Shown in pieces: positions 9,939 to 25,569 of a stretch of 47,659 nt of DNA (the first letter of the stretch is position 1; each line of letters begins with the position of its first letter). The notes beneath the pieces were generated by a model. The model saw nothing but the letters and a program-made list of their open reading frames with translations. It was not told where the DNA came from and did not search any database. The position numbers and the translations under genes are program-made. Origin of the DNA: a bacterium (GTDB lineage: Bacteria > Patescibacteriota > Saccharimonadia > Saccharimonadales > SZUA-47); NCBI GenBank assembly GCA_030427365.1, contig JAUHWW010000005.1:1-47659 (forward strand). The letters run 5' to 3'.

Positions 9939-10001
9939 TCCTAGAACCCGCCCAAAGAACCAGAACTAGGAATTTCTGGTCGATACTAATCTTCTATTAG
10001 T
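9939..10001. terminator. Cluster of short inverted repeats between convergent genes
   Basis: Three small inverted repeats follow rpmA: TCCTAG/CTAGGA (9939-9944, 9966-9971), CCAGAA/TTCTGG (9960-9965, 9974-9979) and ACTAAT/ATTAGT (9985-9990, 9996-10001). The first two are mutually exclusive. None has a clear T-tract, so a bidirectional terminator is plausible but unproven. Confidence 0.35.
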
Positions 10002-10476
10002 CGTCAAACGGATTAGAGCTACCGTAGTCTTTTTTGAAATCCTCTGGAGTTGTTGTAGTCGCTGGAGGTAACGTTGTGGTGGTTTCTGAGGTTGGTGGGA
10101 TCGTTGTGGTGGTTTCTGAGGTTGGTGGGATCGTTGTGGTGGTTGTAGAAGTACGAGGTGGCTCTGTCGTTTCAGGAGTTGTAGTCGTAGGCTGGAGATT
10201 AGTGTTGCCTACTACGGCAGCCATTGCTGCTCTATCGGCTTCTGTCATTGTGGCTTTAGCTCCTTGTAGAGTCGAAGCTCCGAGTGCTCTTTCTGTCGTT
10301 TCTTGAGGTTCGCCAAGACGACCTCCATCTTCTGGAGCCTTCCAGCTTCCCTGTGGTTTGTCAGCAGGCAGAGGTTCACCGATTGCATCCCGTGGTATGC
10401 CATCTAAATCTCGCGCAAACTTTGATACTGGGCTACCATCGGTTAGTGGATCAAACTTTGGTGCTTCATTATTCAT
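9997..10476 (-). CDS. Low-complexity Thr/Pro-repeat protein
   Basis: 159 residues without signal peptide or membrane helix. The N-terminal 90 residues are polar and Gly/Pro-rich. The C-terminal part is built of Thr runs in a PPTSETTTTI-type repeat and ends in an acidic tail (SSNPFDD). Such Thr/Pro tracts are common in surface or linker regions, but no export signal is visible. No family is recognised. It has its own strong promoter at 10520-10548 with a leader of about 37 bases, unlike most genes here. Confidence 0.65.
   Translation of the reverse strand: MNNEAPKFDPLTDGSPVSKFARDLDGIPRDAIGEPLPADKPQGSWKAPEDGGRLGEPQETTERALGASTLQGAKATMTEADRAAMAAVVGNTNLQPTTTTPETTEPPRTSTTTTTIPPTSETTTTIPPTSETTTTLPPATTTTPEDFKKDYGSSNPFDD
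10081..10140 (-). repeat. Two perfect 30-bp tandem repeats
   Basis: Two identical in-frame 30-bp units (10081-10110 and 10111-10140) flanked by partial copies encode the PPTSETTTTI-type repeat. Perfect identity suggests recent slippage and a likely variable copy number. Confidence 0.9.
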
Positions 10477-10603: not shown

Positions 10604-10773
10604 CTAGCACATTGGCTTGAGCGCAGCTTGGACTTTCTTCGTTCGCGCGCGGAGCGAGCCGTATTTACTACGGTGAAGTGAGTACGATGGACGAAAAAGT
10701 TCAAGATGTGCCAAGAAGAAAACTGGCGCGGCTGACGCAGTCAGTCGGCAGAGCTTTCTGGCCAATGAGCTAG
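10604..10773. ncRNA. Candidate structured RNA, copy 1 (three-way junction)
   Basis: In plus-strand coordinates a 13-position closing helix pairs 10604-10616 with 10761-10773 (one A-A mismatch). Inside it lies unpaired TTGAGC (10617-10622), an arm pairing 10630-10644 with 10689-10702 (14 pairs, one bulge) that carries a CCGTA/TACGG hairpin with a five-base loop (659-673 of the 10 kb block), then GCCAAGAAGA (10710-10719), a second arm around GGCTGAC-GCA-GTCAGTC (10730-10746), and CTG before the closing helix. The element starts directly after the receiver gene stop (10776) when read on the minus strand. A similar fold occurs at 15821-15986. Strand and function are unknown. Confidence 0.5.
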
Positions 10774-10775
10774 CG

Positions 10776-11159
10776 TTAGACGCCGAGAATGTCTTTCACG
10801 CGCTGCACCACGTCCGAAATCACCACCTGTGACTTCACTAAATAGTCATCAACGCCGTATTCTTTGGCCTTCTCCTTGTCAGCTTCTTGGCTGAGAGCGG
10901 TGAGCATAATGATCTTTGTATTGGCTGTTTCTGGCGTGTTTCGCAAGATATCGAGGACGTCGAAGCCAGAGACTTTCGGCATCATAATATCGAGGAGAAT
11001 AATGTCCGGACGAAACGACACTGCTGCAGCGAGCGCTTCTTCCCCGTTTGGTACGCGTTGCACGCTGAAGCCTTCAGCTTCAAGGCGCATCTGATAGACG
11101 CTTGCGAGAGCGTCATCGTCTTCTACTAATAAAACTTTCTTTTGTGTATTTTGATCCAT
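10776..11159 (-). CDS. Stand-alone CheY-like response regulator
   Basis: 127 residues forming a single intact receiver domain. The acidic pocket (VEDDD, 12-16), the phosphoacceptor Asp57 (ILLDIMMP), the Thr/Ser switch (MLTALS) and the conserved Lys (YLVKSQ) are all present. No output domain follows, so it must act through protein contacts. No kinase with intact catalytic residues is in the window. TATGCT (11174-11169) with TTGCGC 18 bases upstream ends nine bases before ATG 11159. Confidence 0.9.
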   Translation of the reverse strand: MDQNTQKKVLLVEDDDALASVYQMRLEAEGFSVQRVPNGEEALAAAVSFRPDIILLDIMMPKVSGFDVLDILRNTPETANTKIIMLTALSQEADKEKAKEYGVDDYLVKSQVVISDVVQRVKDILGV

Positions 11160-15289: not shown

Positions 15290-15766
15290 TCATAAGCTCG
15301 GGGGAGGTAAGCTAGAGTCTGAAGGAATGTGCGCATCTAATTTCGCTAAGAAATCCCAATCTGGCGGCTCATTGCCCATTTGAGGCAAAAGCGACGTGGG
15401 CTGCTCGATTGAAAATGTCGCTGTTCCATCCTGCAACGACTGCATACCTAGCTCGCTAAATCCAACGCTCGTCCCTGTTATCTCACCATCTAGTCTTTGA
15501 ATCCTCACGTCCAGAGCTTCGGCTGGAATCTCACCGTTTATAAGAAACAAGCTAAACCCGCTCCCTCTAAATGTCATTCCCTTTATTACAGATGCTAGCT
15601 CTCCTTCGTTCATCCCATCAGCAACTAACTTAGACAGTCCTTCATTAGTAACACCGGACTCCAGCGCTTTACTAACTAACTGAACCTGTCTCTGCTCAAT
15701 ACTTTGCATGCGCTCTCTCAATAACTCTGCGTATGGTTTATTTTCGGTATTTATTTTTTCTATCAC
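15290..15766 (-). CDS. Hypothetical cytoplasmic protein
   Basis: 158 residues, soluble, no signal peptide, not recognised. A helical N-terminus (ENKPYAELLRERMQSIEQRQVQLVSKALESG-like region, about 8-40) is followed by a mixed domain and a Pro-rich tail (PSDSSLPPPSL). GTG 15766 is the start: TTGCTT, 17 bases, TATTAT (15778-15773) ends six bases before it, making a leaderless GTG gene. It lies between the M23 gene and the folded region at 15821-15986 and does not obviously belong to the division genes. Confidence 0.6.
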   Translation of the reverse strand: MIEKINTENKPYAELLRERMQSIEQRQVQLVSKALESGVTNEGLSKLVADGMNEGELASVIKGMTFRGSGFSLFLINGEIPAEALDVRIQRLDGEITGTSVGFSELGMQSLQDGTATFSIEQPTSLLPQMGNEPPDWDFLAKLDAHIPSDSSLPPPSL

Positions 15767-15820: not shown

Positions 15821-15986
15821 TCGTGCTCTAGGCTTGAGCTGTTTTTTATATTTTTGTATGAATTGCAAGCGAGGCGTATCAGGCATACGTTAAAGCGCGA
15901 CTCGCAGGCAAAAAGACGGAAAAGAGCCAAGAGATCAGCGGCGCAGCAAGCATGCTTGCTGGCAGGCTGACTGGCCTAGAGTGCGA
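15821..15986. ncRNA. Candidate structured RNA, copy 2 (three-way junction)
   Basis: In plus-strand coordinates 15821-15833 pairs with 15974-15986 over 13 positions (two G-T wobbles), with a different sequence from copy 1 except the inner GGC/GCC. The same unpaired TTGAGC (15834-15839), GCCAAGAGA (15926-15934) and CTG before the closing helix recur. The first arm contains GCGAG/CTCGC (15869-15873, 15901-15905) and a CGTAT/ATACG hairpin with a five-base loop (15875-15889). The second contains TCAGC/GCTGA around the perfect palindrome 15944-15961. Read on the minus strand it begins five bases after the ftsX stop. Confidence 0.5.
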
Positions 15987-15990
15987 GGTT

Positions 15991-16941
15991 TTACCAATGT
16001 TTTAGCTTGAGGTACTTCTCCATCGCAAGCATCGACGACACTGCACCGATAAGAATACCGAGTAAGATTAATGAAGCAAGCATAACGGTCACAATTCCTG
16101 TTTCTGTAAAGAAGGCATACGTCTGTGCAAACTCTTTCTGATTGGACACTTGCCCACCGAGAGAATAAATCAGTGAGTAAACGCCTACTGTCGAGATAAT
16201 GCCTGCAAACACACCGTACAGCGAGGCTTCAACTAAGAAAGGGCCTCGAATATAGCTTGGCGTCGCACCTATCAATTTCATGATGCGTATTTCGTCTCGA
16301 CGAGTGTAGATTGCCATCCGTATCGTGTTGAAGATGATCATGATTGACACAGCCGATAATGTTAATGCAGCCACAATGCTCGCTGTATTAATAAAAGTCT
16401 GCGCTGAAGCGGCTTTATCAATCGTGGCTTGTGCGTCGGTCTGACCAAGTGAAACGCTGTCGATGAACACAGCGTTTTCCTCACGCGCAGCAAAATCACC
16501 AATTTCTGGCATGCGCTCCAGATCACTTACGGTGATGCGCAAACTCGCCGGCAGTACATCATTCCCCGCCAGGGCCAAGGCCTGCAAGATATCATCGTCA
16601 TTCTGAAAATCACCTGCTAAATCAACCCGCGCCTGATCTTGCGTGATGTAGTCGATACTTTCAACAAAATCGAGTGCCAATATACGGCTCTGCAGCAGAT
16701 TTCGCTCTGTGTCGCTAACGTCATCAACAAGATAGATAGATGCTTTCAGGTCGCGAGCAAGCTCATCGATAGCGTTATTCGCCGTTACGTTGAGCACAAC
16801 GGCAATAGCAATAATCGTCAAAGCAACAATCATCACCGCGGTTGCAGCGATGGTCAACCACGCGTTACGAAACAGATTGAGAAAGCCGGTTTTAATAATA
16901 CGGCGGGTCGTATTAATTTGCCGCGCTGTCATCCCTGCCAT
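15991..16941 (-). CDS. ftsX: Cell-division ABC transporter permease FtsX
   Basis: 316 residues with the FtsX layout: an N-terminal helix (about 27-49), a large extracytoplasmic domain (about 50-190, RDLKASIYLVDDVSDTERN onward) and three C-terminal helices ending near LKLKHW. FtsX passes ATP-driven signals from FtsE to outside hydrolases with coiled coils, such as the M23 protein encoded about 700 bases downstream. Its start overlaps the ftsE stop (TAATG). Confidence 0.92.
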   Translation of the reverse strand: MAGMTARQINTTRRIIKTGFLNLFRNAWLTIAATAVMIVALTIIAIAVVLNVTANNAIDELARDLKASIYLVDDVSDTERNLLQSRILALDFVESIDYITQDQARVDLAGDFQNDDDILQALALAGNDVLPASLRITVSDLERMPEIGDFAAREENAVFIDSVSLGQTDAQATIDKAASAQTFINTASIVAALTLSAVSIMIIFNTIRMAIYTRRDEIRIMKLIGATPSYIRGPFLVEASLYGVFAGIISTVGVYSLIYSLGGQVSNQKEFAQTYAFFTETGIVTVMLASLILLGILIGAVSSMLAMEKYLKLKHW

Positions 16942-25402: not shown

Positions 25403-25569
25403 GAACAACACACCCTCTCTTTCTGGCAATCAACCAAGTTGATTGCACCAAAGAGAGTCTTGGCGCCAAGCACGATTTTTTCCTGTGCTACTCCCTTCAA
25501 CGTATGTCTATACGTTTCGGTCTGTTGCTCGAAAAGAAATCGCACCTGACACTCAAGTGTGTCACTCAT
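25399..25569 (-). CDS. 56-residue hypothetical protein coupled to the nuclease gene
   Basis: A continuous frame from ATG 25569 to TGA 25401-25399 encodes 56 residues (beginning MSDTLECQVRFLFEQQ, ending KERVCCS). It lies 16 bases after the stop of the PsbP-like gene and its stop overlaps the nuclease ATG (ATGA), the exact arrangement of a coupled operon gene. It has four cysteines, two adjacent near the C-terminus. No homology is recognised. Confidence 0.6.
   Translation of the reverse strand: MSDTLECQVRFLFEQQTETYRHTLKGVAQEKIVLGAKTLFGAINLVDCQKERVCCS

Follow-up and report, generated by a model that had tools for sequence, protein, structure and literature searches.

A large family of dispersed elements with a conserved RNA-type fold in Patescibacteria

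The window, which is the whole stretch of 47,659 nucleotides analysed here from a bacterium of the Saccharimonadales, contains two intergenic regions that were proposed to fold into the same structured RNA. The locus raises the question of whether these regions are copies of a conventional noncoding RNA gene, one of them associated with a receiver gene, or members of another kind of element.

Three copies of one fold in the window

The original prediction described a three-way junction with the same layout and different helix sequences at both places, and this layout is present at both. The stretch 10604-10773 folds on the + strand with an energy of -77.5 kcal/mol (z -5.8; 0 of 200 shuffles were as good), and the stretch 15821-15986 folds on the + strand with -68.1 kcal/mol (z -3.9). 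The minus-strand folds are weaker, with z-scores of -4.3 and -2.8, respectively. Homologues were searched for in 149 relatives with the motif pair GCTTGAG...GCCAAGA, which returned many matches with the same layout and a common central hairpin, GCCGTAC...GTACGG. A covariance model, R1, was built from 19 homologues. The motif GCTTGAG-N75..105-GCCAAGA has exactly 2 matches in the window compared to 0.02 expected, and R1 detects a total of three copies: copy 1 (10607..10770, + strand; 103.7 bits, E 1e-26), copy 2 (15824..15983, + strand; about 78 bits, E 9e-20) and copy 3 (25404..25566, - strand; 113.7 bits, E 2e-29). Copy 3 was absent from the original prediction and has the top score.

All three copies feature one architecture, which consists of a variable closing helix (P1) made by the arms of the element, a CTTGAG/GCCAAGA junction, a long arm that ends in a GUA:UAC hairpin, and an optional third arm. 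The element is about 115-175 bp long, and many family members lack the third arm and are ~115 bases long. In copy 1, the CTTGAG at the base of the long arm (10616..10621, + strand) and the GCCAAGA at the junction (10710..10716, + strand) are both invariant in the 19 aligned homologues. The apical hairpin of the long arm (10659..10673, + strand) is of the CCGTA-tttac-TACGG type, in which GUA/UAC is nearly invariant and the outer pairs covary; this hairpin may resemble domain V of group II introns. The third arm, P3 (10717..10759, + strand), shows changes on both sides at 15 of its 16 pairs. The junction letters TTGAGC and GCCAAGA had been predicted to be unpaired. CTTG probably pairs with CAAG around a bulged A, so that the junction letters would be partly paired. 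Covariation is silent on this pairing because the CTTG/CAAG letters never vary.

The difference in helix sequence between copies was taken as a sign of covariation, and the alignments agree. In the alignment of 19 homologues 44 of the 56 pairs change on both sides and 87.9% of cells are paired, giving a covariation score of 0.632 versus 0.233 (sd 0.014) for shuffled alignments and at most 0.14 when the partners are slid. A wider alignment of 79 sequences contains 405 G-U pairs versus 77 A-C mismatches, which shows that the strand folded originally is the structured strand. This ratio is 143:25 in copies that are antisense to both neighbours and 103:18 in sense copies, so the strand signature is a property of the element that does not depend on a host transcript. 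The element is like Rfam families (riboswitches, 6S, SRP RNA, RNase P and tmRNA) in having a conserved RNA secondary structure; as had been suspected, it has no match among them, since neither the window nor 20 further loci gave a match at the gathering score. Two focused searches at relaxed E-values gave only chance-level matches, none below E 0.5. The conserved RNA-type structure with strong covariation is genuine, and its many homologues are found in Patescibacteria.

Genomic distribution and gene boundaries

The genome from which the window was taken (0.94 Mb) contains 13 R1 matches at E<=1, 11 of which are strong. Other genomes carry 19 (G107), 29 (G075) and 38 (G042) copies, the 38 being found in a 0.9-Mb genome. 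Of the 149 relatives, 80 have matches. A sample of 287 genomes from across the phylum includes 29 with matches, and several of these have ten or more. The element is distributed patchily and is missing from many complete genomes. The named records that contain the strict motif are from Saccharibacteria, apart from two that carry the labels Patescibacteria and Parcubacteria, and viral contigs gave no match to the exact pattern. Literature searches on Saccharibacteria and Patescibacteria gave no description of the element. The element family is large and dispersed, and it is described neither in the literature searched nor in Rfam.

Genes were called by a simple hexamer-based script, and gene starts are therefore approximate. 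Copy 1 is antisense to both neighbour genes and its right end lies 5 bases from the stop codon of a receiver-domain (CheY-like) gene (10776..11159, - strand; Pfam PF00072, 8e-25). Copy 2 is also antisense to both neighbours, and its right end lies 7 bases from the stop codon of ftsX (15991..16941, - strand; Pfam PF02687 and PF18075). These two copies were reported to follow minus-strand stop codons directly; they do adjoin them, but with the 5 and 7 intervening bases. The left-hand neighbours (9997-10476 and 15290-15766) have no Pfam match, consistent with their description as small orphan genes. The orphan gene at 9997-10476 features near-perfect direct repeats of ~36 bases (gttgtggtggtttctgaggttggtgggatc...) at about 10066-10145. 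Copy 3 is in the sense orientation between two codirectional genes, starting 19 bases past one stop codon and ending 1 base ahead of the next start codon.

Intergenic copies of the family occur in both orientations and beside unrelated genes, and they are antisense to both neighbours in 36 contexts; in G075 they are mostly antisense to the local gene majority. The right end of most intergenic copies is located 0-7 bases from a start codon, the stop codon of a convergent gene, a 5S rRNA or a tRNA-Met, and P1 usually extends past the model and in many cases reaches into the gene boundary. Copies in the 23S-5S spacer, 3-5 bases before the 5S rRNA, are found in the window's own genome on C33 (L094) and C32 (L095) and also in G032, with L063 likewise listed. 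An additional copy stands before a tRNA-Met gene. Three copies, L113 (gltX), L291 and L289, are located at the very start of a gene, where in-frame starts are seemingly found only within or beside the element, resulting in N-terminal extensions.

The proposed tie between the RNA and the receiver gene is not upheld by these contexts, since copies adjoin unrelated genes and are also found inside essential ones. A riboswitch or leader RNA does not fit the occurrence of both orientations, the unrelated neighbour genes and the copies within genes. Promoters are not in excess upstream of the copies, nor are T-runs beside them on either strand. An intrinsic terminator was rejected for want of a flanking T-run.

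Copies inside protein genes

At least 25 copies are in frame inside conserved genes. Of these, 24 distinct copies are sense and 1, in tgt of G042, is antisense. The host genes include those for GlmS, MutM, LeuRS, PrmC, PcrA and MurC. In alignments to solved structures, the GlmS insert falls between E. coli residues 59 and 67. The LeuRS insert is at position 237 in the T. thermophilus enzyme, and that of PrmC is bounded by HemK/PrmC residues 118 and 123. The MutM insert precedes the LFFNDQRKFG strand. As judged from sequence, the in-gene inserts sit at tolerated loops of conserved proteins.

The in-gene copies retain 91% of their pairs. The host frame is open in every in-gene copy detected, with detection itself favouring open frames, compared to only ~15% of sense frames for non-gene copies; the non-gene copies (n = 94) contain 41 open sense frames versus 117 open antisense frames. 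No gene was seen to be interrupted by a copy containing a stop codon. The median GRAVY is -0.70 for sense peptides, which are hydrophilic, and +0.16 for antisense peptides. This difference between strands means that tolerance at the protein level can account for the orientation bias with no need for RNA, and RNA-level selection was set aside as the cause of sense-only insertion.

Several individual copies have unusual contexts. The copy L107 (G075 C2:35194) lies within the leader of a type IV pilin, ahead of GGFTIIELMIA. The type IV pilin leader is normally cleaved off, and the insert would go with it. In L109, ~150 residues of LeuRS (residues 414-568) are unaligned to the T. thermophilus enzyme and may be a second insert or a lineage domain. 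Two successive copies, one in a methyltransferase gene and one between this gene and rpmA, occur at L042 (G075) and at L270/L272 (G042), and this double-copy arrangement is the same in two families.

Ends, persistence and the nature of the element

The ends of the element are sharp in G407, which belongs to a distant part of the phylum and carries 7 near-identical copies of 169-170 bp with unrelated flanks. The G407 copies are bounded as TA|GGACTTACG...CGTAAGTCC|TA, with inverted repeats in 7/7 copies and TA, a candidate target-site duplication, on both sides in 7/7. Elsewhere, the terminal arms vary in sequence but stay paired. Copy 1 of the window also has a TA on its left (10605..10606) with a counterpart on the right (10771-10772). 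These bases form part of the 13-bp closing helix, and they may be due to chance because self-complementary dinucleotides are common at helix ends. At the ends of the Saccharibacteria elements TA pairs are 5.8-fold and CG pairs 6.7-fold over independence. This TA excess does not point to a target duplication in Saccharibacteria, because the CG excess is larger and P1 pairing accounts for it. No autonomous partner or transposase was seen, and a terminal-repeat scan of the 92%-complete G407 assembly gave none.

Comparison of related genomes provides evidence for both turnover and persistence. In a 20-kb stretch of G107, 4/4 element sites are empty in the congener G094, and sites 2-4 are also empty in G046. 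A different genus has an element at site 2, and some of the empty sites may therefore reflect loss rather than gain. The closest copies within a genome are ~80% identical in Saccharibacteria, which argues against a recent burst in the order. A copy located 5' of rpmA is common to three genomes of two families with 75-81% identity, compared to a median of 64% and a 99th percentile of 76% for random pairs. Sites in a methyltransferase gene, MutM, MurC and PcrA are also shared across families, with a similarity that mostly does not exceed that of random pairs. At the orthologous rpmA sites there are 10 compensatory double changes versus 5 broken pairs, and the outer part of P1 differs in sequence yet remains paired. 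The MutM copies of G082 and G113 feature 11 compensatory double changes versus 8 broken pairs, although their unpaired positions are 91% identical.

Taken as a whole, the family is probably a non-autonomous, dispersed palindromic element of the MITE type, like the Rickettsia palindromic elements (RPE), with an unusually conserved RNA-type fold. Copies would be spread in trans by a transposase and would survive where they are least harmful, at gene boundaries and beside 5S rRNA and tRNA genes. Inside genes, survival may be limited to cases in which translation of the sense strand would give a hydrophilic peptide resembling a linker. The folded strand may be what mobility or host machinery recognises, either as RNA or as single-stranded DNA, and the independence of the strand signature from the direction of the neighbouring genes favours recognition of a folded strand. 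Several points stand against the mobile-element reading: no transposase or autonomous partner was seen, TA flanks are not specially enriched in Saccharibacteria, the copies there show no recent burst, and part of the empty sites may be due to loss. The long persistence with compensatory change at some sites also exceeds the expectation for a plain parasite. A phylum-wide mobile RNA element, in which the folded transcript is selected besides the DNA in all copies, including those in essential genes across family-level divergence, is possible but doubtful. If true, it would imply that these ultra-small bacteria contain protein or RNA machinery that recognises the fold, and such machinery would serve RNA-intermediate mobility or gene-boundary handling.

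The location of the copies at gene boundaries allows for a cis-acting regulatory or processing RNA, in which P1 overlaps start or stop codons, the Shine-Dalgarno sequence or the 5' end of the 5S rRNA and would govern translation, decay or processing for the gene next to it, with mobility being secondary. The short distance between the right end and the boundary in most intergenic copies, the extension of P1 into the boundary with an outer part that varies yet stays paired 5' of rpmA, and the retention of the rpmA copy between families with compensatory changes in place are all consistent with this role. However, the neighbours are unrelated, the strand signature is undiminished in the 36 contexts that are antisense to both of them, copies also occur within coding sequence, and many complete genomes have no copy, which makes a cis-acting role unlikely. 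An element that acts as folded single-stranded DNA, like attC sites or the ends of IS200/IS605, on which a recombinase or Y1 transposase would act, would account for a structure that is kept while the sequence is free, for a strand signature that is independent of transcription with no promoter driving the folded strand, and for the antisense bias of the intergenic copies in G075. The symmetrical TA-flanked ends in G407 better fit a cut-and-paste transposase, and the conserved internal loops and optional third arm are not attC features; we consider this explanation rather improbable.

The strong covariation and the strand signature are also what a family of conventional, independently transcribed noncoding RNA genes, as implied by the original prediction, would show. 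Such a family is very unlikely, since there are tens of copies per genome, with up to 38 in a 0.9-Mb genome, many relatives are without the element, some loci are empty in congeners, and copies reside inside coding genes. The missing promoter excess and the lack of a terminator-like T-run at the ends also argue against independent transcription. The in-gene copies, which are almost all sense and have a closing helix that joins the flanks, could be viewed as intervening sequences that are spliced or bypassed in translation. This interpretation is hardly credible and is rejected because the frames stay open in all in-gene copies detected versus ~15% in non-gene sense frames; additionally, the insertions are located in protein loops, which is what translation would lead one to expect.

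The preferred reading, a mobile palindromic element, can be compared to several known repeats. Rickettsia palindromic elements and the protein-coding palindromes of Wolbachia are about 100-150 bp long with palindromic ends, and they are found in intergenic regions, in frame in conserved protein genes, and also in or beside RNA genes (PMC2229807, PMC10969869). The present element has a similar size, palindromic ends and dispersed copies, and it too resides in frame in conserved genes, a likeness of kind that is drawn from descriptions of those elements. It is unlike RPE in its branched core, invariant junction letters, phylum-wide covariation, strand signature, use of several reading frames and occurrence in a different phylum. 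For RUP of pneumococcus, an IS630-type transposase is the presumed mover (PMC2229807). The element resembles such IS630-type MITEs in being short and non-autonomous, with inverted repeats and TA at the ends of the G407 copies, but no transposase partner was found here. ERIC/RU-1, NEMIS/Correia, YPAL and BOX are likewise small and dispersed, and their transcripts adopt a stable secondary structure; intragenic in-frame cases are reported for ERIC-type repeats (PMC2759123, PMC2229807). Most of these repeats are long stem-loops or mosaics that belong to a single genus or family, unlike the present element with its covariance-supported junction fold across a phylum. On this comparison the nearest kind would be the protein-coding palindromic elements of Rickettsia and Wolbachia together with bacterial MITEs, and the element appears to be a member of no named family.

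Streamlining is expected in genomes of less than 1 Mb, yet up to 38 copies of an element of ~160 bases are present in some of those examined here. The family would be a phylum-scale counterpart of the Rickettsia palindromic elements, with a structural signature that is far stronger, and many annotated proteins of environmental Patescibacteria gain in-frame inserts from it. The question of what recognises the fold is thereby made testable.
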